Shown piece by piece: positions 3,585-31,539 of a stretch of DNA of 33,836 bases. The notes under the pieces were generated by a model. It did not search any database, was not told where the DNA came from, and saw nothing but the letters and a program-made list of their open reading frames with translations. The position numbers and the translations under genes are program-made. Each line of letters opens with the position of its first letter. Within the stretch, counting starts at the first letter, position 1. Where the stretch lies: contig JAPUEB010000045.1 of NCBI GenBank assembly GCA_027492795.1, positions 1 to 33,836 on the forward strand, in the 5' to 3' direction. The stretch comes from Chryseobacterium sp. GTDB taxonomy: Bacteria; Bacteroidota; Bacteroidia; Flavobacteriales; Weeksellaceae.

Positions 3585-4672
3585 TTTATTCGGTATTCAA
3601 GTTTGTCCCAAATACTTGTCCTTTCAGTATCAAACAATACACTTTTATATGGTATAAAATCACCATTATCAAAACTAATCATCAAACGAAAGAACAAAAG
3701 AGTAAAATATAAAAACGTGATGCTTTTGAATAATAGTTTATTTTTATTTTCTAAAAAATAGTAGATAAAAGAAATTCCTATAGCAACAAAAATTAAGTAA
3801 TACCATGAAAACCTTATAAATGATGCATTAGTTAGCGATATTAGAATTAAAAATACATAGAATAAAGCGCCGTTAAAAAAAATGACAGACTGTTTATAAC
3901 GGTAAAGATTTTTTCCAAAGAAAAATAACACTCCAAATATTATTAAGGATTCTATGAGATAGAAGATATTGATTGCTCCAGACTTAGCTACATATTTAGA
4001 AACTTTTGCATCACCAATATTTTCTGAAAACAGATTCAAAAACAAATTGGATAACGGAGTTAATGAAATGAAAATTGCCAACGCAGCACAAACTGCAATG
4101 GTAAAAGGATTGAAGCGGTAGTTTCCTAACAAAACTAGAGGAAGAAAAACTATTGAAGATTTATGAATGAAAAACGCCGTAATGCACAACAGGGCTACTA
4201 CAAAGTATGATCTTTTTATGATAAAAGGTATTGCCAACCAAATTACCCCCATTGCAATACCTTGCCTAACATAAACATAAGACATTAGATAAAACTTACA
4301 GAATATAATAAATGCTGCGAAAAAAGGTAAATATGCATATCTCTTTATGTTGTAAGAAAAAAGTAAAAAGGTTAGGAGACTGCTTACAAAAAGCATAAAA
4401 TATCTATCTGTGGAGAATATACGAAGTAATAGATAGTATAAACGAAATCCAAATTCAAATGGTTTGAATGTTAATATAAACCTGCCATCCGATTCATACA
4501 CTTCAGAATATACGTAAATATCATAACCACCAATCATGTCACGAAGACCTGCCGTAAGTACTACAGCAGAAAAGGAAAAAATTGCAAAATTCTGCAATTG
4601 TTGAATACTCATCTTTTCCTCTGTCCAGAAGATGAAGGCAAAAACCAAAAACAGAATTATGTATACTAACAT
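3581..4672 (-). CDS. EpsG-like O-antigen/exopolysaccharide polymerase (Wzy role)
   Basis: This 363-residue integral membrane protein has about ten hydrophobic segments and a short charged segment after TM1 (WTEEKMS). The pattern, including the loop after TM2 (GLRDMIGGYDIYVYSEVY) and a central YVRQGIAMGVIWLAI stretch, is that of the EpsG family. This family fills the Wzy polymerase position in many Firmicutes and Bacteroidota loci. It would join repeat units at the outer face of the inner membrane after Wzx flips them. It is the only polymerase candidate in the cluster, which supports the role. It overlaps the upstream gene by 7 nt and the downstream GT2 gene by 4 nt. Confidence 0.8.
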   Translation of the reverse strand: MLVYIILFLVFAFIFWTEEKMSIQQLQNFAIFSFSAVVLTAGLRDMIGGYDIYVYSEVYESDGRFILTFKPFEFGFRLYYLLLRIFSTDRYFMLFVSSLLTFLLFSYNIKRYAYLPFFAAFIIFCKFYLMSYVYVRQGIAMGVIWLAIPFIIKRSYFVVALLCITAFFIHKSSIVFLPLVLLGNYRFNPFTIAVCAALAIFISLTPLSNLFLNLFSENIGDAKVSKYVAKSGAINIFYLIESLIIFGVLFFFGKNLYRYKQSVIFFNGALFYVFLILISLTNASFIRFSWYYLIFVAIGISFIYYFLENKNKLLFKSITFLYFTLLFFRLMISFDNGDFIPYKSVLFDTERTSIWDKLEYRIK

Positions 4673-5892
4673 AAGTTACGTTTCATCAATTGATTTTTTA
4701 AATCTTTTGCAACAAAATCAACGGTAAAATGCTCCTTCATTGCACTTAGGTTTTTCCTAAACAAGCCATAATCTGCAATAGAATTATTATCCAACAACGC
4801 AATTTCTTTCACTTTACTCAACAAATGATCATAATCTTTACATACATAACCAATAGCCCCAAATCTTTCTACAAGATTATCGAAATAAGGATGCTGATAA
4901 GTTAAAATAGGAATACCAAAAGCAACTGCATCTATAAATGCTCCGCTTGCCCGAAATACGTACTGTATTTGATCATATAAAAAAACAGTGAAATCCAGAT
5001 TTTTTAAATGAGATTCATACTCTTCTCTGGTAAGATAATCTGGTTTGTCTGGCTTACTATTGCCAACTTTTTCTAGAACCCATTCATTCTTATAATCTTG
5101 CATCTCGGGAGTTATTAAACCAACAGTTTCAAAAACTACGTTATGATCTGTTATGAATGAACTTGAGTCTTTTGCCAATTGATATAATATATGTGAATTT
5201 TTGCGATATCGCTCCATACTGCCAATGTGACCAATATGAACTGGAGAATTAAGTATTTTATCATAATGATCACTACCGTCCATTTGCAGGTAGGGATGAT
5301 CAATCTCTATAATTTCATTCTCTTTTACAAAACCAGATTGCAAAAGTTTGTTCTTTGAAATTTTGTTGAGTACAATATAGTAAAAATTGGAAGACTTAAC
5401 GGCCAAATTAATCCTATACAGAAGCCCCGTGAATTTTTCGAATTTATTTTGTGTAACATAAAGAAAATCTAAATCACCATGCAAAACTGCAATAAACTTT
5501 CTTGATGGATACAATATTTTTAAAAGCTTTAGAAGTAAAAATGAAGTTGGAGTAGTAATCGACAAGAAATAACGGTCGTTTGAGGATCCTCTTTTTAACA
5601 ACTGATAAAAGTGGAAAAACCTTTTTATTTCTTTTCGTATAAAGTTGAATAGTTTATGAATGGTTTTTTCGGTTTTTGGTTCAGTATAAATTATGGGTGA
5701 CAGCTTTATCTTCACTAATTCCTCAGCATCTAACAAACTTAATGTGCTTGATTGACTAGATTCGATACCGCAAAAAGTGATTATACTATGTTGGTATATC
5801 TTAATTAGCATACTTACAAAAGATGCATTAAAAATCATGTGGTGGTTTCGCTCGGAAGTTTGATCTATAAAGTAAATTTGCGAATCGTTCAT
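4666..5892 (-). CDS. Probable GT-B-fold glycosyltransferase, divergent
   Basis: This 408-residue protein has no family signature that I can name with certainty. The C-terminal third reads like a GT-B donor domain: HIGHIGSMERYRKN near 219-232, then the late FRASGAFIDAVAFGIPILT segment near 313-331, which corresponds to the EGxxxxxxEAxxxGxPV region of GT4-type enzymes with the Glu residues lost. An earlier FIAVLHGDLDFL segment resembles the end of the acceptor domain. It lies between a GT2 gene and the EpsG-like polymerase and overlaps the latter by 7 nt. The context strongly implies a transferase or sugar-modifying role in the same pathway. Confidence is high for the gene and moderate for the function. 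Confidence 0.7.
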   Translation of the reverse strand: MNDSQIYFIDQTSERNHHMIFNASFVSMLIKIYQHSIITFCGIESSQSSTLSLLDAEELVKIKLSPIIYTEPKTEKTIHKLFNFIRKEIKRFFHFYQLLKRGSSNDRYFLSITTPTSFLLLKLLKILYPSRKFIAVLHGDLDFLYVTQNKFEKFTGLLYRINLAVKSSNFYYIVLNKISKNKLLQSGFVKENEIIEIDHPYLQMDGSDHYDKILNSPVHIGHIGSMERYRKNSHILYQLAKDSSSFITDHNVVFETVGLITPEMQDYKNEWVLEKVGNSKPDKPDYLTREEYESHLKNLDFTVFLYDQIQYVFRASGAFIDAVAFGIPILTYQHPYFDNLVERFGAIGYVCKDYDHLLSKVKEIALLDNNSIADYGLFRKNLSAMKEHFTVDFVAKDLKNQLMKRNLC

Positions 5893-5909
5893 TTTGATAA
5901 AAAAAATTA

Positions 5910-6902
5910 TTATTTTGTTTTTTGTATATTTACAATCTTATCAATGAAATATTTTTCGTAATTAATCATATATTTCCTAGTTTTTTGAGCAATGGTTTTC
6001 AACGATCCTTTGATTGGATATAAATCATACTTCTTAAGTTCTTCGAAACATCTTTTTATAAAGCTTTCGTTGAGGTTTTCTTGCTTACTATAAAAACGCC
6101 ATAATAAGTTCCAAACAACAGAATTATAATTTTTTATTATTGCTGTTTTTAGTTTTGGATCCATGTTATATTGGATAGTGTCTTTAATAAGTTTTGCAAC
6201 AATTATCTCATCATGTAGAAGTTTTTCAAGCTTTTTCATATCTGTTGGCTTAGACATCGATCCACTATGCTGCAGGTAGTTGTATGCATAATCTTCTTTG
6301 AAAATAACTTTCTGTGCATTAATCATTAAACGGTTTGTAAATTCAACATCTTCATGCGTGATGCCCAAAACAAACTTTAGATTTTTTTCTTTCAAAAAAT
6401 TAGTTCTGATTAGGAAACAACAAACGCTCGATATTTGGTAACCTTTTATTAAAGCTTCAGATCCCTTTAAAACTTTATCGTACTGAACTGAATGCCTATC
6501 TTTCATTCTAATCAGATTACCACTTTCATCAACTAATTTCATCCCATAGCACAGAGCGTCAATATTTAAGTGATCTGCATTGGTAAGCAAATGTATTAAT
6601 ATGGAAAAGTTAATAGTATCGTCTGCATCTAAAAATTGAATGAACTTTCCTCTAGCGTGATCGATTCCAGTATTTCTTGCGCCAGATAATCCTAAATTAT
6701 GTTGGTGAATAACCTTAATATTACTTTTTCTAGCTCCAAAATCATTCAAAACTTCACCACTATTATCCGTTGAACCATCATTTACAAAAATAATTTCAAA
6801 ATCTTTTTTAGGTAGAAATTGATACAAAGCTTCTAAATCCCGAAACGTCCTTTCCAAAAAATTGACACCGTTATACACCGGTATTACTATTGTTAATTTC
6901 AT
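5910..6902 (-). CDS. Glycosyltransferase family 2
   Basis: This 330-residue GT-A family 2 enzyme starts KLTIVIPVYNGVNFLERT. It shows the nucleotide site FVNDGSTDNS near 40-49, the LSGARNTGIDHARGKF helix near 73-88, and the metal-binding DADD (FLDADDTI) near 92-95. A C-terminal helical region of about 120 residues has many Lys and aromatic residues, as in capsule GT2 proteins that sit on the membrane surface. The ATG overlaps the Wzx stop by 4 nt (ATGA). Specificity is unknown. Confidence 0.92.
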   Translation of the reverse strand: MKLTIVIPVYNGVNFLERTFRDLEALYQFLPKKDFEIIFVNDGSTDNSGEVLNDFGARKSNIKVIHQHNLGLSGARNTGIDHARGKFIQFLDADDTINFSILIHLLTNADHLNIDALCYGMKLVDESGNLIRMKDRHSVQYDKVLKGSEALIKGYQISSVCCFLIRTNFLKEKNLKFVLGITHEDVEFTNRLMINAQKVIFKEDYAYNYLQHSGSMSKPTDMKKLEKLLHDEIIVAKLIKDTIQYNMDPKLKTAIIKNYNSVVWNLLWRFYSKQENLNESFIKRCFEELKKYDLYPIKGSLKTIAQKTRKYMINYEKYFIDKIVNIQKTK

Positions 6903-8329
6903 TTTATAAATGATATGATATTCATTAACATTTTTCTATTTATTAAATAACTAAAAAATATATAGCATAGTGCAAAAATAGTTAACTGAGTAATTAAATA
7001 TAAAAATACATTATTACTTAAGAAATTTAAAAGTTGTAAAAATGGTAATGCTAAAATCGTAGCCAAAAATATCCTCAATAAATCTATGATTTGATCTTTT
7101 ATTAAATACTTATTTAGGATTTTCTTTGTAAAAAAAACATGTAAAAGCAATTCAAATAGAGAGTATGGAATTAACAAAGTTACCATAGTTTTAAAATTAC
7201 CAAGAAAGTAGCCAGCACTCACAAAAAGAATAAAAAAAGCTTTACAGATAACACTCACTTTTAATACTAAATCACTCTTACCTTTTATTGATAAAGCGTT
7301 TTCATGTAAAGTCGTAACTGGATACAACATACCTGAAAGAGCTAATACAGTGAGATAGAAATTCATATCTATCCACTTGTTAGTAAATAGCAAAATGATG
7401 ATTTCTTTTGAAAAAAGGGCAATAAAAATTAAGGTAGGGACTGAAATAAATGCTACACCATTTAGTAATTGCCGAAACTTGTTATTGAAAGATGTATTAT
7501 CATTATGTACCATTGAAATAATTGGAAAAGAAACTTTCGAGAATGTATTCGTAATAAGATTTACAAAAATATTTTTCATCGACTCAGAACGACTATAATA
7601 TCCCACGACTGATGGTTGATAAAGTCTTCCAAATAAAACATTTATAACATTTCTGACAATTCCATCCAATAAATTAGTGATTGTTAACTTATATCCGAAT
7701 GAAAAATGTTTTTTTAAAACATTTTTATCAAAAACAAAAAGTCTTGGCTTCCATTTTGAAGCAATCCACAAACAACATAAACTTGAAAAAATACTGATTA
7801 AAGTCGTGAAGACTAAACTCCAAACATGATAATTATTTAGAGCCATAATTACTCCAATCATTCCACCAAGAACACCAGAAATAATAGAAGACAATGCTAA
7901 AATTTTGAAGTGTAAATACTTTGTTAAATATGCTTGTTGTGTAGTTGTTAACGAGTTTAAAATAATGGAAATCGCATAAACTCTCACAACATCAATTAAT
8001 ATTTTCTGATGAAAAAAATTCGCAATAAATGGTGCAGATATAAATACTATTAAATACAAAACAATACCAATAACGATATTGAAATTAAAAATAACTGAAA
8101 AATGATAATCATCAGCATCAGCATCTCTAACCAAAGAATTTGAAAAACCAGAATCTAGAAGAACGTTACTTATTGTAAAAATAACATATATCATTCCTAG
8201 CAAGCCATAATCTGTAGGAGTTAATAATCTTCCTAATATTATAACTAAACTTAGGCCTGTTATTTGGCTAAATAGTTGCTGTAAAAAAGTCCACTTAAAT
8301 CCGCGAAAAGCTTGCTCTTTTAAAGACAT
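6899..8329 (-). CDS. Wzx-type polysaccharide flippase (MOP superfamily)
   Basis: This membrane protein has 12-14 hydrophobic helices. It starts SLKEQAFRGFKWTF and continues with the ILGRLLTPTDYGLLGM segment that is a hallmark of the LPS/capsule MOP exporters (residues about 30-45). It should flip the undecaprenyl-linked repeat unit to the periplasmic side for the EpsG-like polymerase. I chose the ATG at 8329 (476 aa). A TTG two codons upstream (8335) would overlap the wzc stop. The ATG begins directly after the wzc stop codon at 8332-8334, which fits coupled translation. Confidence 0.92.
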   Translation of the reverse strand: MSLKEQAFRGFKWTFLQQLFSQITGLSLVIILGRLLTPTDYGLLGMIYVIFTISNVLLDSGFSNSLVRDADADDYHFSVIFNFNIVIGIVLYLIVFISAPFIANFFHQKILIDVVRVYAISIILNSLTTTQQAYLTKYLHFKILALSSIISGVLGGMIGVIMALNNYHVWSLVFTTLISIFSSLCCLWIASKWKPRLFVFDKNVLKKHFSFGYKLTITNLLDGIVRNVINVLFGRLYQPSVVGYYSRSESMKNIFVNLITNTFSKVSFPIISMVHNDNTSFNNKFRQLLNGVAFISVPTLIFIALFSKEIIILLFTNKWIDMNFYLTVLALSGMLYPVTTLHENALSIKGKSDLVLKVSVICKAFFILFVSAGYFLGNFKTMVTLLIPYSLFELLLHVFFTKKILNKYLIKDQIIDLLRIFLATILALPFLQLLNFLSNNVFLYLITQLTIFALCYIFFSYLINRKMLMNIISFIK

Positions 8330-8331
8330 TA

Positions 8332-10641
8332 TCAAAAGAATTTTTTCAATCCTGTTTTCTCCTTCTCATGATAATACCCATACGCATACTTTTTACCATA
8401 GCGTGTATTCTCTTTTTTCACACCGTTCAGCACAAAAGACAAAGTTTTTATATGGTTTTCTTTTCGGAAATTATCCGCAAACTCGAGCATTTCTTTTTCG
8501 GTGTAATCTGCTTTTACCACATATAAAACCACATCTGCATGCTCCACCAAATGAATACTGTCGCTTACCAGCATTACTGGTGCAGAGTCAATCAGTACAT
8601 AATCGTACTTGGAGCTCAGGCTTTTCACCATTTCACCAAATTTAGGCATATCCAAAAGGTCGTTCGGATTCGGAGGGATACTGCCACTGATCATGATATC
8701 CAGATTTTTATTCATAGGTGAGGAAGCTATAAATCCTGAATAATTTTCGGTATCCGACACAAGATAATCGGACAATCCCTGCGAAGAATAGGATTGCAGA
8801 TAACGCTGAAGCTGCGGATTTCTAAGATCTGCACCTATAAGTATCACTTTGTTTTTACTGGCAAGTGTAAGAGCGGTGTTCATAGAGATTGTGGTTTTAC
8901 CTTCACCCTTAATAGATGAAGTGTACAAAATAACGCCACCCTTTTCCTTATTTTTAGTTTTTAATAAAAATTTTAGATTGGAAGCCAAAATACGGAAAGA
9001 TTCTGCATATACCGAGAAATCATTAGCACCCACAATTGCATTTTCACCATCGTGTAAGGGTACTTCTGTAAGTACAGAAGCTTCCGGAATAACGCCTGTA
9101 ATATCTTCCCTACGGTGTACTTTGGTATCCAGGGAGAATATACCGAACAAGACGAGCAACGGCAACATAAAACCAGCACCTAAAGCACCCAATACAATTT
9201 GGTTGCGGTTGGGTTTTACCTGCCCTACTGTATAAGCCGGATTTACTACCTTGGCTTTCGGAGCCGTAACCGCCAATGTAATAGCATTTTCTTCCCTTTT
9301 CTGGAGTAGATAAAGGTAAAGCTGCTCTTTTAGATTAAGTTCACGGTCAATACTCCTGAATATTTTTTCCTGGGTAGGAAATTTGCTGATTTTAGCACGA
9401 TCCGTACTTACCTGCTGCTGCAGACCGGCAATGCTGTTTGCCAAATTGTTTCTAGTATCGGCAAGGTTTCTGCGGATAATGTTTTTTAGAGAGGCGATTT
9501 CACGGTTCAATTCAATTACTGCCGGATTGGCATTGGTAGCCTGCTTTAAAGTAGCATTCCTTGTGATAACCAATTCATTGTACTGCGATATTAATGACTC
9601 CGTGGAAGGAGGTAGCCCAAGGTTACTGGGAATAAGGCCTTCACCAGTTGCTGCACCCGAGATAGAATTAAGCAAATCCAATTGGGTGCGGTACGCTACA
9701 ATTTGTTTGGTATTATCACTGGCATTTTGCAGAGAAAGCTGTGCCTGTGCCTCTAAATCGGCAATTTCGTTCTGACGCTTGAAACCTTCTTTTTGTTTTT
9801 CAACCCCCAAAAGGTCATTGGTGATAATGGATAATCGGTTGGTAATAAATTCCTGCGTATTGAGTGCTTCCTGATTTTTATCGTTCACACCGTCTATATT
9901 GTATTGGCGAACTACTTCATCCAAAATAGACTCCGATTTATAAGGCAATGGACCTACCATGGAGAGATCCATAATAAGCCCTTTGTTCTGCGGAATTTCT
10001 ACCTTCACCCAGCTTTCCAGCAAAGACACCGCTTGCTTGCTGTTTAAAATTTGAACTTTATAATCATTTGTAATAACTGACGTTGGCTTACCAACGAAAA
10101 CCGCTTTACCAAAAGGAAACTGATGCACCACGCCCAAACGGAATGTACCCGGAACACCAGAAAGTTTAAAGGAATTGTTTCCTACAGGCGATAAGGTATA
10201 TGATGCCCCCTGAAAATCAGGTTTGAACTCACGGATTTCTACATAAAACGGTGCATCTTTATACGCTTCCACTTCTTTTACTTTACCAATCGTAAAAACG
10301 CGGGAAAATAAATGAAGCTTCTGCGCCACTTTCTCTAAAATAGGTTTTGAAACAATGACGGTAGTTTCGGTTTGCAGTTCTTCATTACCGCTAACGCCCA
10401 TTCCTAGAGAATTCAAATCAGATAATGCTGAGGCGGAAACACCTTTGCTTTTGTTTTCGGAGAAGCGCAAAGTAGTTTTGGACAGATACTCCTTCTCCGC
10501 ATATCTAAGATAAATTTGTGCCGCCGCATAAAACAATGCCATACTGATGAGAAACCAATACCATCTCTTGAGATATTTAGCCACCTCCTTCTTGAAATTG
10601 ATTTTTTTGTTCTGCAAAGGCAGATTTTCAAGTAATTCCAT
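8332..10641 (-). CDS. Wzc-like polysaccharide co-polymerase and tyrosine autokinase
   Basis: This 769-residue inner-membrane protein has an N-terminal Wzz domain with TM1 near 28-46, a long periplasmic coiled-coil region (about 255-450) and TM2 near 481-503 after a Pro-rich approach. The cytoplasmic BY-kinase domain follows: Walker A KGEGKTT (578-584), Walker A' ILIGADLRNP (600-609) and Walker B VLIDSAP (682-688). The C-terminus carries a tyrosine cluster with Tyr748, 752, 754, 756 and 757, the expected autophosphorylation tail. Cycles of phosphorylation are known to control chain length and export together with Wza. The gene starts 3 nt after the wza stop. Length and layout match the fused Bacteroidota/proteobacterial form, not the split Firmicutes form. 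Confidence 0.95.
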   Translation of the reverse strand: MELLENLPLQNKKINFKKEVAKYLKRWYWFLISMALFYAAAQIYLRYAEKEYLSKTTLRFSENKSKGVSASALSDLNSLGMGVSGNEELQTETTVIVSKPILEKVAQKLHLFSRVFTIGKVKEVEAYKDAPFYVEIREFKPDFQGASYTLSPVGNNSFKLSGVPGTFRLGVVHQFPFGKAVFVGKPTSVITNDYKVQILNSKQAVSLLESWVKVEIPQNKGLIMDLSMVGPLPYKSESILDEVVRQYNIDGVNDKNQEALNTQEFITNRLSIITNDLLGVEKQKEGFKRQNEIADLEAQAQLSLQNASDNTKQIVAYRTQLDLLNSISGAATGEGLIPSNLGLPPSTESLISQYNELVITRNATLKQATNANPAVIELNREIASLKNIIRRNLADTRNNLANSIAGLQQQVSTDRAKISKFPTQEKIFRSIDRELNLKEQLYLYLLQKREENAITLAVTAPKAKVVNPAYTVGQVKPNRNQIVLGALGAGFMLPLLVLFGIFSLDTKVHRREDITGVIPEASVLTEVPLHDGENAIVGANDFSVYAESFRILASNLKFLLKTKNKEKGGVILYTSSIKGEGKTTISMNTALTLASKNKVILIGADLRNPQLQRYLQSYSSQGLSDYLVSDTENYSGFIASSPMNKNLDIMISGSIPPNPNDLLDMPKFGEMVKSLSSKYDYVLIDSAPVMLVSDSIHLVEHADVVLYVVKADYTEKEMLEFADNFRKENHIKTLSFVLNGVKKENTRYGKKYAYGYYHEKEKTGLKKFF

Positions 10642-13973: not shown

Positions 13974-14370
13974 AATAGGATGAGGTAAAGGATGAGGTTG
14001 AGATGAAGGAAGAGTAAAAGATTTATCAATTAAGTTTTTTACTTTTCCTTATATTTTTAAATGATTGCACAATGTATTGCCTAATCGGAAATTAATTTTC
14101 TTCGTTTTCCCCTATTCCTACAGGGAGCGAAGAAAATCAATTTCCTCCTTTAGGGACGGGGAAAAGAAATTGATTTTCAATATATCACAATTATATTAGA
14201 TAAAACCTTGAGTAATCATCTATTTTTTATTTTTATTAAATCCTCCTCCATCTTTTCAACCTTTACCTAAACCTAAACCTTTACCTAAATCTAAACATTA
14301 TCCTTTACCTTTACCTTTACCTTTACCTTTACCTTTACCTTTACCTTTACCTCAACCTAAACATAATCCT
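13974..14370. other. 397-bp repeat-filled gap between glyA and recX
   Basis: The gap begins with GATGAGGTNAAG-like units (13979-14010) directly after glyA. It then holds the palindromic element at 14071-14184 and ends with the CCTNAA/CCTTTA hexamer tract that runs into recX. The tract's sense relative to the first units makes the gap an overall loose inverted repeat (GAGGTTGAG versus CTCAACCT). Confidence 0.7.
14071..14184. repeat. Palindromic dispersed repeat, copy 1 (AAATTGATTTTC family)
   Basis: AATGTATTGCCTAATCGGAAATT leads into three alternating copies of the motif AAATTGATTTTCTTCG separated by CCCC/GGGG blocks, so several alternative hairpins are possible. A second copy at 25386-25498 matches along its length with the same leader (AATGTATTACATAAACGGAAATT) and the same end (TTGATTTTCAATATA). 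A fragment lies at 28398-28452. Confidence 0.85.
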
Positions 14371-15928: not shown

Positions 15929-16125
15929 CTTTTGTCTTAATACAAAAGTAACAAAAAATCAAGACTGGATTTTTTTGCTAAAATTTCCAAATATTTTCTA
16001 AAATTTCCAAAACTCGGGCGGAAACTTGATTTTGCTATTTAAGAAGATTTTTGCCGCCACTCAAACAATGGAAATTTCTTAACGAAAATATTTTGAAATT
16101 TCTTAACGCAAAAAACTCCTAGGTC
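15929..16125. repeat. Long-hairpin element, copy A
   Basis: This element of about 200 bp is shared with 17820-18044 and 21128-21323. It opens with the small hairpin CTTTTGT-cttaat-ACAAAAG, then ATCAAGACTGGATTTTTTTGCTAA, and closes with CTTAACGCAAAAAACTCCTAGGTC. Between them the arms pair: 15981-15998 with 16084-16101 (17 of 18), 16001-16009 with 16069-16077, and GGCGG 16017-16021 with CCGCC 16054-16058. The arms differ in sequence from those of the other copies but keep pairing. With the ends, the whole element is one long stem-loop. Confidence 0.85.
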
Positions 16126-17533: not shown

Positions 17534-17819
17534 TTTTTTTTAATTTCTCACAGATTACACAGATTTTCACAGATTTTTTTAAAACCACAAAAGACACAAA
17601 AGCGTCATTGCGAGGAACGAAGCAATCTAAGATGGAACTTATTGTGTTTATTAAGTTTACAATATTGAAAATCAAAGATTTTCTTTTTATGAGGATTCAC
17701 TTTTTTAAAAATAAATTAATAACATCTTTTTGTCATTCCGTAGGAATCTCAACTATTAATTTCCATTGTTCTTTTTCTAAAATTCTTTCAAAATAAATTC
17801 CAAAATATTTCTTTCTGTT

Positions 17820-18044
17820 CTTTTGTCTTGAAACAAAAGAAACAAAAGTTCAAGACTTGGATTTTTTTGCTAAAAAATTAAAATTTCTTTTAAGAAAATT
17901 TCCAAACTCGCTCGGAAACGAGATTTGGTCTTTATAGTTAAATTTTTGCCTCGCTCAAACAGTGGAAATTTTTATGCAGTTATAATTTACACGATTTGTT
18001 CACAAGAAATTTTAATTTTTCTTAACGCAAAAAACTCCTAGGTC
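17820..18044. repeat. Long-hairpin element, copy B
   Basis: This is the same element as 15929-16125. Arms 17873-17888 and 18005-18020 pair perfectly over 16 nt, and AAATTTCC (17896-17903) pairs with GGAAATTT (17964-17971). The outer arm sequence (AAAAATTAAAATTTCT) differs from copy A. The right half carries about 30 extra bases. The end is the conserved CTTAACGCAAAAAACTCCTAGGTC. Confidence 0.85.
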
Positions 18045-18130
18045 GGAAATTCGGTGCCTAATCAAGATATGCTTCATTTACTTTATTTACTACTCTCAAA
18101 TATTAACTTTTATGATTTATCATTTTAAAT

Positions 18131-18191
18131 TTTGGCTAAAGCCAATTGATTTTCATTTTTTGTAAATGGGCTAAAGCCCGTTCCTATTGAT
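18131..18191. repeat. Two mini-hairpins with CTATTGAT linker
   Basis: TTGGCTAAAGCCAA and GGGCTAAAGCCC are followed by GTTCCTATTGATAG. The same hairpins and linker occur at 29815-29879, beside the unknown gene in the nrd interval. Confidence 0.8.
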
Positions 18192-21127: not shown

Positions 21128-21323
21128 CTTTTGTCTTGGAACAAAAGAACCAAAAGTTCAAGACTGGATTTTTTTGCTAAAAATTTTAAAAACTTCCTAA
21201 AATTCTCCAAACTCGCGCGATACTCAATTTCGTTGTTAAAATTAAATTCTAGCGCGCTCAAACAAGGAGAATTTCTTAACGGAATTTTTTTAAATTTTTC
21301 TTAACGCAAAAAACTCCTAGGTC
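21128..21323. repeat. Long-hairpin element, copy C
   Basis: This is the third copy of the element, between ccoN and the Rrf2 gene. Arms 21179-21197 and 21281-21299 pair at 17 of 19 positions, AATTCTCC (21201-21208) with GGAGAATT (21266-21273), and GCGCG (21215-21219) with CGCGC (21253-21257). In copy A the equivalent pairs are AAATTTCC/GGAAATTT and GGCGG/CCGCC, i.e. compensating changes. Confidence 0.85.
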
Positions 21324-25276: not shown

Positions 25277-25385
25277 TTTTCTATTAGATTTATGCGCATA
25301 AAGATAAGGATTTCAGAGAGTTTAGGGAAATTTTAGAAAATGATTAAAGTTATTATTTTCAAAAAGTTTTGTTTGATGATTAAAT

Positions 25386-25498
25386 AATGTATTACATAAA
25401 CGGAAATTCATTTTCTTCGTTTTCCCCAACCCTAAAGGGAGCGAAGAAAATCAATTTCCTACCTTTAGGGTTGAGGAAAAAAATTGATTTTCAATATA
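25386..25498. repeat. Palindromic dispersed repeat, copy 2 (AAATTGATTTTC family)
   Basis: It matches 14071-14184 through the leader, the CTTCGTTTTCCCC block, AGGGAGCGAAGAAAATCAATTTCCT and the end TTGATTTTCAATATA. It fills most of the gap between the cysteine-synthase-like gene and the XRE regulator. Confidence 0.85.
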
Positions 25499-25536
25499 TA
25501 AATTTAAATAGGAAAAAACTTGATAATTATTTTTCC

Positions 25537-26351: not shown

Positions 26352-28007
26352 CTACGCTTCACAACTCGAACACGTCACAAAATTCACCATCAATTCTTTT
26401 GAAACCGAAGAACTTCTTTGGTAATACAATGTTTTCACGCCTTTTTTCCACGCTTCAATATAGAGATAATTCACGTCTTTCACTGGCATTGTTGATGGAA
26501 TTTGAAGGTTCAACGATTGCGCTTGGTCGATATATTGCTGTCTTTGTGCGGCTTGCGAAATAATTTCCATCGGAGAAATTTCGCGGAAGGTTTTGAAAAC
26601 TGCTTTTTCTTCATCCGTCAATTCCGCCAAATGTTGCACAGAACCGTGATTCAGCATAATTGTTCTCCACGTTTCCTCGTTGTCGAGACCTTTTTCTTGA
26701 AGCAATTTTGCTAAATATTTGTTTTTGCGCATAAAGTTTCCTTTCGCCAAACCTGCTTTGTAATAATTAGACGCAAAAGGCTCAATTCCCGGAGAAGTTT
26801 GTCCCAAAATTGCAGACGAAGAAGTTGTAGGTGCAATCGCCATTACAGTGGTGTTGCGCATTCCGTAACCCTTCAACATTTCTGGTTCGCCATAAATATT
26901 TGCCAATTCTTGCGATGCCTGAATTGATTGCTCCTTAATGTGTCTGAACGCTCTCGCATTGAATTGCGTCGCCTCAAAACTTTCAAAAGGAATCATATTT
27001 TTCTGCAAATAAGAATGATACCCTAAAACTCCCAAACCAAGCGCTCTGTGACGCATTGCGAAGTTTCTGGCTCCAGTTAAATAATAATTTCCTTCCGTTT
27101 TTTCAATAAATTCAGATAGAACAGCATCCAAGAAATAAATTGCCAGTTTTACAGCGTTCGTATCTTTCCATTCATCATACAATTCCAAATTCATCGAAGA
27201 AAGACAGCAGATAAAACTCTCATCTTTCGTAGAAGGTAGCATAATTTCCGAGCAAAGGTTACTCGCATTCACGGTAAGACCTAAATCTTTGTAAACCTGC
27301 GGTTTATTGCGGTTCACATTGTCCGTAAAGAAAATGTAAGGAAGACCTTTTTGTTGGCGACTTTCTAAAACACGCGCCCAAATTTTACGTTTTTCGTTGT
27401 CGCCGTCAATCATATCCTGCATCCAGTAATCAGGAACGCAAACTCCCGTAAACAAGTTCTGAATTGGGCTTCCAATGTCTTTAATGGACAAAAATTCGTC
27501 AATATCGCCGTGGTCAATATCCAAATACGCCGCAAAAGCACCGCGACGAACACCGCCTTGTGAAACCACATCCATCGCCGTATCAAACAGTTTCATAAAC
27601 GAAACCGCGCCGGAAGATTTTCCGTTATCCGTAACCGCAGTTCCACGATGACGCAATTCCCCGAAATATCCCGAAGTTCCACCGCCAATTTTCGTCTGCA
27701 TAATCACTTCGCCGAGTTTATGCGTAATTCCCTCGATATGGTCCGGAATATGTACATTGAAACACGAAATCGGAAGTCCGCGCTGCGTTCCCATATTCGC
27801 CCAAACCGGCGATGAAAAGGAAATCCAGCCTTTCGTAATCATCTCTTTAAAAGCAGGTTGCAACTCTGGTTTATAAAGTCGTTTTGCAGCGGCAGTTGTA
27901 ATTCTGTCAATCGCACCTTCCACAGTTTCACCTTTCAAAAGGTAACCGCGATTCAGCATTTGCTCACTTTCTTCGTTCAACCACCAGATATCTAATTGTT
28001 CTTCCAT
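26352..28007 (-). CDS. nrdA: Class I ribonucleotide reductase, large (catalytic) subunit, without ATP-cone
   Basis: This protein reduces ribonucleotides to deoxyribonucleotides together with NrdB. It has 551 aa, about 200 shorter than E. coli NrdA, and begins directly in the catalytic core; the N-terminal ATP-cone is missing. Active-site residues are present: Cys82 (PISCFN), Asn250-Cys252-Glu254 (NLCSE), the Cys268/269 region, Tyr528-Tyr529 for radical transfer, and the C-terminal redox pair Cys546/Cys549 (CSSC). It lies downstream of nrdB on the same strand but is separated from it by 2.1 kb of repeats and one unrelated gene. Confidence 0.95.
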   Translation of the reverse strand: MEEQLDIWWLNEESEQMLNRGYLLKGETVEGAIDRITTAAAKRLYKPELQPAFKEMITKGWISFSSPVWANMGTQRGLPISCFNVHIPDHIEGITHKLGEVIMQTKIGGGTSGYFGELRHRGTAVTDNGKSSGAVSFMKLFDTAMDVVSQGGVRRGAFAAYLDIDHGDIDEFLSIKDIGSPIQNLFTGVCVPDYWMQDMIDGDNEKRKIWARVLESRQQKGLPYIFFTDNVNRNKPQVYKDLGLTVNASNLCSEIMLPSTKDESFICCLSSMNLELYDEWKDTNAVKLAIYFLDAVLSEFIEKTEGNYYLTGARNFAMRHRALGLGVLGYHSYLQKNMIPFESFEATQFNARAFRHIKEQSIQASQELANIYGEPEMLKGYGMRNTTVMAIAPTTSSSAILGQTSPGIEPFASNYYKAGLAKGNFMRKNKYLAKLLQEKGLDNEETWRTIMLNHGSVQHLAELTDEEKAVFKTFREISPMEIISQAAQRQQYIDQAQSLNLQIPSTMPVKDVNYLYIEAWKKGVKTLYYQRSSSVSKELMVNFVTCSSCEA

Positions 28008-28856
28008 AACGCTATTTTTGTTTAAAGTCCAAAGTTTAAGGTTTCAAGTTTACCTTCTTTGAAAATATTAGTTTTTTAATTTTTTTTTAGGAGCAACCCG
28101 TTTTTTGCTTCTTTTGAAATTTCGGTCCCGCTTTCCGTTACAATCTGTCATTGCGAGGAACGAACCAATCCCAATCTTACAAAATTTTGGCTCGCAATGT
28201 CAGGATTTCCACTACAATCGGGGCTAAAAAGAGGTTTCGGGTTTTCTTTCGCTGTTTTTTCCAACGCTTCCCATGTTTTTCCCGTCATTGCGAACGAAGT
28301 TTACGAAGTGAAGCAATCTGTTTCTAAAAAAGTTTTGCTTCGTCATCATTCTTCTGGACTTTATTCACTTTTCGTCTGTACATAGCGGAGTTTTGTGGAA
28401 TTTAATTTTCTTCGCACCCTTTAGGGTTGGGGAAAACGAAGAAAATTAAGTTCTATTTTTTCGCAATTTTTTTATTAAAACCTCAAAAAACCAAGACGTC
28501 TCGCCTCTGGCGCTCCCCAAAAACCTGCTTAATTAATTTCTACCAACATTTCGCGCCTCTGGCGCTCCCCAAAAACCTACTCTTTAATTTCTACCAACAT
28601 TTCGCGCCTCTGGCGCTCCCCTTTTTCGTTCTATTTCTTTCAAAGGGCTACACCCTTTGCTATTGATGTCGCGCCTTCGGCGCTCTTTAATTTCTTTCTA
28701 TTCATTTCCGGAGGCTTCGCATCCGGCTATTGATGTTTCGCGCCTTCGGCGCTTCTCTATATTTTTAAATTTTGGCTGAATTCTAGTGAACTCCTTATAT
28801 AATAAACGGTTTTTGAACCTCTAATTCACATTTACGGAATTAAATACAACTACACA
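28008..28856. other. 849-bp repeat region upstream of nrdA
   Basis: In order: a short unique stretch; CTGTCATTGCGAG palindromes at 28145-28203 and 28283-28353; a fragment of the AAATTGATTTTC family at 28398-28452; and the mini-hairpin array at 28481-28774. No gene and no clear nrdA promoter were seen. Confidence 0.75.
28481..28774. repeat. Mini-hairpin array, left copy
   Basis: It holds three tandem units of about 51 bp built on GCGCCTCTGGCGC and AAAAACCT...CTACCAACATTT. CAAAGGG-ctaca-CCCTTTG, GCGCC-ttc-GGCGC, CCGGA-ggcttcgca-TCCGG and a second GCGCC-ttc-GGCGC hairpin follow, joined by CTATTGATGT linkers. A nearly identical array in the same direction lies at 29581-29826, beyond the gene 28857-29561. 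Confidence 0.88.
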
Positions 28857-29561
28857 CTAATTCAAATAATTTAAAATTTTATTTATATCCCTTTCTAATT
28901 TAAAGTTAAGTTGAATTTGTTCTAATTTTAAAGGCTCTGTTTTTCCAATTTTTTTCTCATTACCAAAACTTGCAATCCAACAATCATATCCATTAGCGAA
29001 TGGGTGAAAAATTAGATAGCGATTTTGATTAATATTTTTGTAGTATAAAAATTGGTTAATAGAAATTTTACTTTTTTCATCCAAAACACAATTAAACTTA
29101 TTATTACTAAAAAATTCTAACAAAATTTTATTTTCAAAATTAATTTTATAAGTATAATCTAATAGCATATTTAGTTTATGCGTTTCTTTTTCATTTGGTA
29201 CAATAAATAGATAATATTTGAAAAGATTATCGTTTTTAACTAACGATATTTCTTTAGCAATAATATCGTTGAAAATCTGATGAAATTGCTTAGGAGTAAC
29301 CGTCTTACTATGATAAATTAGTTCTTTTTCCAAAAATTCTCTCAAAAAATAATAATGAATTTCTGTCAACGTAGTAAATTCATATTCTTCACTAGTTTTT
29401 CTAAAATATTTGTAACTATTCTTGTATTTAAAAAATCCAAATCCTCTTTCTTTTAAAAATTTATAAATATTTGCCCGATTATCAATGGTAATAACAACTC
29501 TTATTCTTCCATCCCTATAAGTTGAAAGAGTCAAAAAATCATCAAAATCCCAAATTTTCAT
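28857..29561 (-). CDS. Unrecognised 234-aa protein flanked by direct repeats
   Basis: I do not recognise this protein. It has no signal peptide or membrane helix, is rich in Lys, Asn, Phe, Tyr and Ile, and is more AT-rich than neighbouring core genes, which suggests foreign origin. The N-terminal part (DNRANIYKFLKERGFGFFK then YFRKTSEEYEFTT and a helical YFLREFLEKELI) faintly recalls the first domain of Bacteroidota phage or plasmid primase-like proteins; this is a weak impression only. The C-terminal half has alternating beta-like segments. It lies between two copies of a mini-hairpin array and splits nrdB from nrdA, so it is best read as inserted cargo. Confidence 0.75.
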   Translation of the reverse strand: MKIWDFDDFLTLSTYRDGRIRVVITIDNRANIYKFLKERGFGFFKYKNSYKYFRKTSEEYEFTTLTEIHYYFLREFLEKELIYHSKTVTPKQFHQIFNDIIAKEISLVKNDNLFKYYLFIVPNEKETHKLNMLLDYTYKINFENKILLEFFSNNKFNCVLDEKSKISINQFLYYKNINQNRYLIFHPFANGYDCWIASFGNEKKIGKTEPLKLEQIQLNFKLERDINKILNYLN

Positions 29562-29580
29562 ATTAATTCTATTTTAAAAA

Positions 29581-29826
29581 CCTCAAAAACCAAGATGTCG
29601 CGCCTCTGGCGCTCCCCAAAAACCTGCTATTTATTTTCTACTAACATTTCGCACCTCTGGTGCTTCCCTTTTTCGTTCTATTTCTTTCAAAGGGCTACAC
29701 CCTTTGCTATTGATGTCGCGCCTTCGGCGCTCTTTAATTTCTTTCTATTCATTTCCGGAGGCTTGGCTTCAGGCTATTGATGTTTCGCGCCTTCGGCGCT
29801 TCTCTATATTTCTAAATTTTGGCTAA
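29581..29826. repeat. Mini-hairpin array, right copy
   Basis: It aligns with 28481-28774 from CCTCAAAAA-CCAAGA to AAATTTTGGCT, with one fewer 51-bp unit and scattered changes. One hairpin keeps pairing after change: GCGCC/GGCGC on the left became GCACC/GGTGC at 29651-29663. Both arrays have the same orientation. Confidence 0.88.
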
Positions 29827-29885
29827 AGCCAAATGAATTTTATCTTTTGAAAACGGGCTAAAGCCCGTTCCTATTGATGTTTATT

Positions 29886-29918
29886 AAACCTTCAAGGTTT
29901 TGAAAACCTTGAAGGTTT
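29886..29918. repeat. 33-bp perfect palindrome
   Basis: AAACCTTCAAGGTTTT and AAAACCTTGAAGGTTT are exact reverse complements around one central G. Each arm also holds the smaller palindrome CCTTCAAGG/CCTTGAAGG. It lies directly after the last CTATTGATGT linker. Confidence 0.9.
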
Positions 29919-30140: not shown

Positions 30141-31115
30141 TTAAAACAAATCATTCGCGGTAATACTCTTATCGTGTTTCGTATAATCCACAGGTCTTTT
30201 CGCAAAGAAATCATCCAAAGAATTCGCGAAAACTTCCTCCTCAAACCAAACCATCGGTCTGTAATCGGCTGGACTAACGTTGTAGCGTGTTGCCATTCCG
30301 ATTTTTTTCAAACTGTCATCCACGCGATATTTCATAAAATTCAAAAGATTTTCTTTAGAAATATTGTCGATTTCGCCCATCTCGAAAATCCAGTCGAGAA
30401 TTCTTCCTTCCAATTCTACAGATTGGTCAACCAAAGTGTAAATATCTTCAATGTCGCTGTCGGTCAACAATTCCGGTTGCTCTTCGCGGATTTTATTGAT
30501 TAAATAAATTCCTGCATTGGCGTGAATTTGCTCATCAACAGAAGTCCAAGCGATAATGTTGGACACATTTTTCATATAACCTTTAAATCTCGTGAACGAC
30601 AAAATAATCGCAAATTGTGAGAATAACGATACATTTTCAATCAAAATACTGAACAAAAGCAGCGATGAAACATATTCTTTCGGTGTTGTAGAATTGGCGT
30701 GTTTCAAAACGTTGGTCAAGAAATCGATCCGTTCTTTAATCGCAGGAATTTCTACAACATTCAAAAACTCATCGTTGTAACCCAAAACTTCCAACAATCT
30801 TGAATACGCTTCGGAATGACGAAATTCGCATTCTGCGAAAGTGGCGCCAAGTCCGTTCAGTTCTGGTTTTGGCATGTGGTTGTAAAGATTTCCCCAAAAT
30901 GTTTTTACGGAAACTTCAATTTGGGCAATGGCTAAAAGAGCGTGTTTCACTGCATTTTTTTCGTGCGGCTCCATCTGCGATTTAAAATCCTGAACATCTG
31001 CCGTAAAATCTACTTCAGAATGTACCCAAAACGATTTGTTAATCGCCTCAACGAACTGTAAAACTTCCGGATATTCAAACGGTTTATAACTCACTCTTTT
31101 GTCAAAAATTCCCAT
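30141..31115 (-). CDS. nrdB: Class I ribonucleotide reductase, small (radical) subunit
   Basis: This 324-residue ferritin-like protein holds the diiron-tyrosyl radical cofactor. Metal ligands and radical site are visible: acidic residue in WVHSEVDF (30-37), Glu67 (IEVSVK), and the ExxHxxxY motif Glu97-Phe-Arg-His100-Ser-Glu-Ala-Tyr104, with Tyr104 the radical tyrosine. Later helices supply the second ligand set (SVDEQIHANAG). The ATG at 31115 is chosen (MGIFDKRVSYKPF); an extension to 31166 is spacer-like. There is no N-terminal ATP-cone, so neither subunit carries one. Confidence 0.95.
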   Translation of the reverse strand: MGIFDKRVSYKPFEYPEVLQFVEAINKSFWVHSEVDFTADVQDFKSQMEPHEKNAVKHALLAIAQIEVSVKTFWGNLYNHMPKPELNGLGATFAECEFRHSEAYSRLLEVLGYNDEFLNVVEIPAIKERIDFLTNVLKHANSTTPKEYVSSLLLFSILIENVSLFSQFAIILSFTRFKGYMKNVSNIIAWTSVDEQIHANAGIYLINKIREEQPELLTDSDIEDIYTLVDQSVELEGRILDWIFEMGEIDNISKENLLNFMKYRVDDSLKKIGMATRYNVSPADYRPMVWFEEEVFANSLDDFFAKRPVDYTKHDKSITANDLF

Positions 31116-31539
31116 AGCATGATTTTTTTTTAAATAATTAAAACTGTTACTGTTGAAAACCGCCAATAAATACCGTAAAATACTGATTGAGTAATATTTA
31201 CACTCAATTTTTATTCACAAAAATTATTGATTTTCTTTCTTCAGCAGTGAAAACAAAAATAGAAAATTGCGCCGTATATTAAAAGCCGTTAATATTAAAT
31301 TGTTGGTTTTTAGAGGTAAAAGTTTTCCACATTGACACCAAACCTTGGTGCTTAAAGCGTTTGAAAGAAATATTGTGGAGGAATGTGCTTTTAAGGTAGT
31401 AGTTCTTTAAACAAATATTAATAAATTACTGATAGTCAATTTATAAATATTAAACATTTAACATAATGTAATTACTAAAAAAATATTGTAACAAAAAATA
31501 GAATCTTTTGACTTATCATTTAAAATAAAAACCCGCTCA
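31116..31539. other. 424-bp divergent region between nrdB and the ABC operon
   Basis: Both flanking genes are read away from this region. It contains TATTTTTG on the minus strand (plus 31254-31261), a possible nrdB -7 box without a matching TTG. It also contains a nested dyad at 31326-31379: TCCACA/TGTGGA enclosing CACCAA-acc-TTGGTG. No reading frame was supported. Confidence 0.55.

Follow-up and report, generated by a model that had tools for sequence, protein, structure and literature searches.

A probably foreign gene between twin REP-like hairpin arrays in the nrdB-nrdA gap of a Chryseobacterium, and a link between Acido-Lenti-1 and Y1 transposase genes

The window, that is the whole 33,836-nt stretch of Chryseobacterium sp. 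DNA analysed here, carries in the gap between the ribonucleotide reductase genes nrdB and nrdA a single large AT-rich gene, which is enclosed by two nearly identical arrays of small hairpins. The reading we favor, with a probability of roughly 0.6 for all its parts jointly, combines REP-like arrays linked to Y1 transposases, a permissive gap, the entry of a foreign gene and the duplication of an array. The steps it envisages are the following: Y1 enzymes of the subclass 1.2 type probably act on the repeats in the form of single-stranded hairpins; the gap tolerates the coming and going of accessory genes (as seen at the level of the family), and also arrays without cargo (as seen in one relative); an AT-rich, probably foreign gene would have entered this repeat-rich gap via horizontal transfer; and one array would have been copied, recombination among the repeats being the likeliest route, which placed the gene between direct copies. 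The longest stretch of identity between the arrays would further allow a RecA-type deletion of the gene, leaving one array behind. The analysis also bears on Acido-Lenti-1: filed as an sRNA, this family is well supported as a single-strand DNA element that is copied by transposases of subclass 1.2. If true, a transposase group hitherto described on its own would acquire its repeat partner in a puzzling ‘RNA’ family, and both would gain a testable function, namely hairpin binding and cutting.

Results and discussion

Organization of the locus and its twin arrays

The window corresponds to contig C45 of its own genome, a draft assembly of 2.96 Mb in 46 contigs. By nrdB, its closest named relatives are Elizabethkingia, Chryseobacterium, Kaistella, Cloacibacterium and similar genera, i.e. 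Weeksellaceae. An earlier sequence-only reading of this DNA had exchanged the names of the two ribonucleotide reductase genes, Pfam identifying 26352-28007 as the large subunit and 30141-31115 as the small one. The features of the locus are:

26352..28007, - strand: nrdA, ribonucleotide reductase large subunit (Pfam PF02867 Ribonuc_red_lgC, E 9e-108)
28120..28229, - strand: Flavo-1 element (Rfam RF01705) within the nrdB-nrdA gap (65 bits; gathering score 42)
28465..28780, + strand: hairpin array A, with three type I units (28490-28513, degenerate and recognized by eye; 28540-28565; 28591-28616) and two type II units (28641-28683; 28708-28753)
28857..29561, - strand: orphan ORF of 234 aa, 22% GC, of no recognised family
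29565..29827, + strand: hairpin array B, with two type I units (29589-29613, degenerate and recognized by eye; 29638-29663) and two type II units (29688-29730; 29755-29800)
29852..29879, + strand: a further hairpin followed by CTATTGATG, a type II-like half unit
29886..29918, strand not applicable: perfect palindrome with 16-nt arms, between array B and nrdB
30141..31115, - strand: nrdB, ribonucleotide reductase small subunit (Pfam PF00268 Ribonuc_red_sm, E 1e-68, scanned as the slightly longer ORF 30141-31166)

The order is accordingly nrdB, array B, orphan ORF, array A and nrdA, with all three genes on the - strand and the orphan as the sole large ORF listed for the gap. This gap spans 2.1 kb, as against 44-1531 bp in 80 named members of the family.

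Alignment of the repeats confirmed the earlier description of near-identical, same-direction arrays around one gene between the two reductase genes. The segments 28542-28780 and 29589-29827 are identical at 225 of 239 positions (94%), with a longest exact match of 99 nt, and a second block (28465-28543 against 29565-29641) shows 87% identity over 79 nt. At 369 bits this is the strongest direct repeat of the window, the runner-up reaching 150 bits. Array A exceeds array B by one 51-nt unit, and the repeat ends 4 nt from the start codon of the orphan ORF. For a 114-nt segment of array A, the predicted fold is more stable than those of its shuffled versions (z -4.4; 0 of 200).

These data also bear on the possibility that the segment is a chimera put together by the assembler through the repeats, which we consider highly improbable. 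The draft state of the assembly, the gulf in GC content between gene and window, and the failure to find relatives of the protein would all be compatible with it; however, the arrays differ at 14 of the 239 positions and by one whole unit, differences that reads should resolve, and nrdB and nrdA stand in their family-typical order.

Several other direct repeats were observed in the window. A 69-nt one of 90% identity (18123-18191 and 29810-29878) shows that the outer edge of array B, together with the adjoining hairpin-tag unit, recurs in another gap; the remainder (14061-14219 with 25376-25530; 15929-16125 with 21128-21323 and 17769-18051) are of about 160-290 nt and 70-83% identity.

The nrdB-nrdA gap in Weeksellaceae

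The gap comparison covers 80 named Weeksellaceae loci, in all of which nrdB and nrdA are neighbors; in the genus search the genome of the window was the only member of its genus. Among these loci 17/80 gaps are at least 600 bp long and 6/80 hold an insertion with an ORF of 150 aa or more. The counts for the four upstream gene pairs are 3/76, 0/74, 0/72 and 0/69, and two pairs beyond nrdA are likewise variable (8/29 and 2/16). As its usual resident the gap has an ORF of some 95 aa, whose match to the ABM domain is weak and stays below the Pfam cut-off.

The larger tenants include the following: ThsB-like TIR proteins in L090 and L111 (PADLOC, E 4e-113 and 6e-111); a CAP12-TIR/PDC-S35 protein in L129; a DUF4145 protein in L092, with a weaker match to PD-T7-4 (6e-12); a PIN protein in L126; and, in L119 and L069, ORFs without a Pfam match that have relatives in L061 and L062. 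L148 also has a ThsB-like TIR protein in its gap, as judged from its similarity to those of L090 and L111, and in all three of these gaps the TIR gene is found without a second large ORF. In L092, L111 and L129 the insert directly follows the nrdB stop codon: similarity to relatives breaks off no more than about six bases from that codon and resumes past the insert. The near relatives L115 and L075 are without the DUF4145 insert of L092, and where its relatives lack that gene the site is occupied by a hairpin of the GGCGCGAGCGAAGCGAGCGCC type.

Taken at the level of the family, these comparisons support the view that the nrdB-nrdA gap is a variable accessory-gene spot. This type of cargo recalls the anti-phage hotspots found between core genes; unlike what is seen there, the gene of the window has no match to a defence family, and its start is set apart from the nrdB stop. 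The earlier proposal of an insertion between nrdB and nrdA consequently survives as far as accessory insertion into a variable gap is concerned, and falls where it took the arrays to define a cassette. The gap may thus serve as a compact place to seek new defence genes of Weeksellaceae, and the orphan may be one of them.

Direct repeats at E<=1e-3 were detected in 6/80 gaps (L065, L068, L080, L083, L089 and L091), and the gaps with TIR, DUF4145 or PIN cargo had none at this threshold. L080, from Kaistella palustris of another genus, contains a tandem hairpin array that by eye has the type II build, and a 19-nt exact copy of the type II stem of the window, the only such copy in the 80 loci; this gap has no convincing gene and is hence an array-only gap. 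In L083 the resident 98-aa gene is enclosed by a direct hairpin repeat of 179 nt and 92% identity, and in L091 one of 40 nt and 88% identity surrounds the resident 95-aa gene. Since the gene bracketed in these two cases is the family-typical resident, twin repeats are no proof of capture. The repeats of L083 and L091 are themselves of a different hairpin, again of the GGCGCGAGCGAAGCGAGCGCC type, and bracket the ABM-like resident. Together, the repeat data from the relatives indicate that the gap is accessory and repeat-prone, and that arrays are not a general entry route.

The orphan gene

The characterization of the gene as unrecognised and compositionally odd was borne out on both counts. 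Its GC content is 22.4% overall against 35% for the window, and at third codon positions 17% against 31-40% in five neighboring genes, while PADLOC, Pfam, PHROGs and NCBIfam returned no match, to a defence family or otherwise. The orphan ORF very probably codes for a protein, because no ORF exceeded 148 aa in 2000 sequences simulated from the insert with a first-order Markov model. The promoter motif TAnnTTTG is absent from the 580 nt upstream of it. The gene is single-copy in its own genome and probably foreign in origin.

A homologue search across 199 relatives matched the orphan protein in its own genome only. At the order level, matches at E<=1 were obtained in 39/395 genomes including its own, the best of the other 38 having an E-value of 0.002; six of these loci (L032, L039, L043, L045, L046 and L049) were inspected by eye and set aside as unrelated long proteins or as having no real alignment. 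At the phylum level one genome besides its own was matched (E 7.5e-5), a match supported neither by tblastn nor by the ORF lists. No match was recovered by tblastn against phages and plasmids, nor by scans of genome contigs and viral contigs, which are sensitive to close relatives only, and the best match among PDB sequences had an E-value of 0.1. A suspected resemblance of the N-terminus to a phage primase domain yielded a single phage match at E 2 and was dropped. AlphaFold2 run on the single sequence gave a mean pLDDT of 40. Judged by the company that genes keep in this gap among the relatives, the product may act against phages or as a toxin; this is the leading guess, a tentative one that we would put at about one in three.

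The array units are REP-like and dispersed

The arrays are composed of two kinds of units. The type I unit comprises CTACCAACA, 4 nt and a five-pair stem with a TCT loop; the type II unit comprises a first hairpin, then CTATTGATG or CTATTGATT, 2-4 nt and a five-pair stem with a TTC loop. Pattern searches that allowed at most one mismatch recovered 16 type I and 14 type II units in the own genome, and none with the reversed controls. Across all 16 type I copies 77/80 stem cells are paired, the broken pairs falling in two copies whose pattern match, in each case, included one mismatch in the tag or the loop. In nine of the 16 copies (8 distinct) all 40/40 cells are paired, and four of the five pairs show changes on both sides; controls with slid partners were at most 50% paired.

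Counting both arrays, the own genome yields 48 array-A-like matches at E<=10 and 29 at E<=0.001, of which the best outside the pair reaches 76-84% identity over 78-130 nt. When 17 units outside the window were checked against ORFs, 15 proved intergenic, the remaining two falling within short ORFs (107 and 121 aa). Two of the units so checked flank a transposase gene. The proteins scanned beside units (n=5) are MutS-like, a uracil-DNA glycosylase, a thiolase, an acyl-CoA dehydrogenase and flotillin-like. In build and spread the array units behave like REP elements, as judged from sequence, and form at least two families. Because the units are dispersed in the own genome, the arrays alone are no cassette signature. 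The idea that they mark a cassette was abandoned on three grounds: such units occur genome-wide and, at the places checked, lie between ordinary genes; the defence-like gaps of the relatives are without direct repeats; and L083 and L091 show that a gene can come to be bracketed in this way with no capture involved. The sequence-only reading had itself held that arrays around ordinary core genes would speak against a cassette, and the checked units provide this in part.

It is possible, if rather unlikely, that the arrays are ordinary repeats which spread on both sides of whatever gene is resident, in which case the position of the orphan would be uninformative on its origin. Besides the units between ordinary genes elsewhere, this explanation could draw on the presence in the gap of Flavo-1, the extra hairpin-tag unit and the long palindrome, and on the direct hairpin repeats around the resident genes of L083 and L091. 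On the other hand, no other site of the own genome comes near to array B in its likeness to array A, and the repeat extends almost to the start codon of the ORF.

The units share with the REP/BIME elements and their TnpA_REP (RAYT) transposases, the REPtrons, the character of short, multi-copy, intergenic palindromes that are arrayed; as in REPtrons, palindromes flank a low-copy Y1 gene in inverted orientation and stems are kept by paired changes. They differ in two respects: the own transposases have the motif Y---Q--HH whereas TnpA_REP (class 2 RAYT) has Y..NP, and the GT[AG]G at the stem foot of canonical REPs is missing from the type I and type II units of the window. As the own Y1 proteins lack a Y motif ending in NP, the units are REP-like rather than canonical REPs.

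Association with Y1 (HUH) transposase genes

The own genome has seven Y1_Tnp matches, six of them above the Pfam cut-off. The six corresponding proteins are 144-155 aa long and all have Y---Q--HH, the signature of subclass 1.2 (an assignment based on the motif); deviations are seen in the HUH motif of 2/6 (DHLH, EHCH) and in the WQ motif of 1/6, and the genes are diverged single copies. A 2018 survey characterizes TnpA_Y1 subclass 1.2 by Y---Q--HH, DH[IV]H, WQ, a length of about 148 aa and low copy number, enters ‘no’ for it in the REP column, and describes it as generally without typical IS200 end structures (PMC6006769).

The Y1 gene at C37:145450-145794 lies between two inverted type I units, one at 145267(-) and the other at 146048(+), and its flanks form an inverted repeat of 81 nt and 85% identity; the solved relatives of its product are transposases, e.g. 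ISHp608 TnpA (2a6m, E 1.5e-4). A distance of 87 nt separates the Y1 match at C35:177938-178279 from a type II unit, and the flanks of this match likewise form an inverted repeat, here of 91 nt and 74% identity. Among the own Y---Q--HH genes, type I units on both sides are found in 1/6 and a flank inverted repeat in 5/6. The frequency of such repeats was determined with 500-nt flanks at E<=1e-3, independently of Rfam and after omission of one control locus and of five Y1 loci whose contigs were short: they were present at 18/26 Y---Q--HH genes, 4/6 other Y1 genes and 2/79 nrdB control genes. Given that 8/26 signature genes are without the repeat and 4/6 other Y1 genes have it, the flank repeat is not special to the subclass. 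Motif and position together tie the type I and type II families to Y1 transposase genes of the subclass 1.2 type. For TnpA_REP, the processing of hairpins as single strands has been reported (PMC8266576).

Acido-Lenti-1 and the Y1 genes

The type II units of the window align to the full length of Acido-Lenti-1 (Rfam RF01687) at 21.6-27.4 bits, the upper value being the best in the window and the own genome and below the gathering threshold of 37. The two have in common a hairpin, an 11-12-nt linker starting with CTA, a short hairpin with a TTC loop and several copies per genome; they differ in that the window units stay below the gathering score and that RF01687 is classified as an sRNA gene. 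With cmscan at E<=1, neither the surroundings of the six own Y1 genes scanned nor L080 gave an Acido-Lenti-1 match; hence, the link between Acido-Lenti-1 and Y1 in the own genome rests on patterns and inspection.

A scan of 296 genomes of the phylum, with at most 20 candidates scored per genome, showed RF01687 to be a multi-copy family present at E<=0.001 in at least 61/296 genomes (the own genome included) and above the cut-off in at least 28 (the own genome not among them). Y1_Tnp matches occur in 28/28 genomes with above-cut-off Acido-Lenti-1. Proximity was counted over 124 listed above-cut-off copies in these 28 other genomes, with the expectation taken from uniform placement: within 1 kb of a listed copy lie 10/85 Y1 matches of at least 68 bits (0.15 expected), or 10 over all 150 listed Y1 matches (0.27 expected), the other 75/85 having no listed above-cut-off copy within that distance. 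The ten adjacent genes are spread over 9/28 genomes, and 9/10 have Y---Q--HH; the tenth (G616:C4) has DHIH, WQ and YIHNQ, where the stretch ends. At three Y1 genes (G716:C1, G616:C11 and G616:C4) Acido-Lenti-1 copies flank both sides in inverted orientation. There is thus good support for regarding Acido-Lenti-1 as a single-strand DNA element copied by such transposases. In the literature, PMC2864571 lists the family in Acidobacteria and Lentisphaerae, and PMC13298647 calls its function little known; in the open-licence literature we found no report linking Acido-Lenti-1 to RAYTs.

The notion that genes are regularly held between direct Acido-Lenti-1 copies was rejected as a general rule. Fourteen stretches from six genomes, out of 17 fetched, were ORF-listed; a gene between neighboring direct copies was found in 3/14 (L269, L273 and L276), and 11/14 were without a convincing one. 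In L273, three insertion-sequence-like ORFs lie between the copies. In L269 (G614, 3698-8482), ORFs of 1140 aa and 145 aa, which resemble a helicase/nuclease and a NUDIX protein, lie between direct, equal-scoring copies, and in L276 (G691, 31-2425) an ORF of 445 aa lies between two direct copies.

IS200/IS605 elements move between same-strand hairpin ends. It could accordingly be proposed that the two arrays are the ends of a non-autonomous single-strand transposon, with a Y1 enzyme that would cut one strand at both arrays and move array, gene and array as a unit. The shared direction and near-identity of the arrays, the Y1 matches of the own genome, two of which are flanked by unit types of the arrays, and the genes between direct copies in L269, L273 and L276 would favor such an arrangement; weighing against it are the single copy of the gene in the own genome, the want of a Y1 gene between the arrays, the majority of stretches with no convincing gene between copies, and the family-typical nature of the gene bracketed in L083 and L091. 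We regard this proposal as improbable. IS200/IS605 (subclass 1.1) itself is comparable in the homology of its Y1 HUH transposase, and differs in that the array-gene-array unit holds no transposase gene. It is similarly doubtful, to much the same degree, that both halves of a wider claim hold, namely that Acido-Lenti-1 is a transposase-copied single-strand DNA element and that the same-direction arrays let the transposase capture a passenger gene and move it into and out of the gap.

Flavo-1 may also be a transposase-linked repeat. It is found close to nrdA both in the window (28120-28229, - strand, 65 bits) and in L080 (7892-7996, 61 bits). The copies in L219 (387-469, 67 bits) and L247 (2002-2144, 36 bits, below the cut-off) lie about 1 kb or less from Y1 genes.
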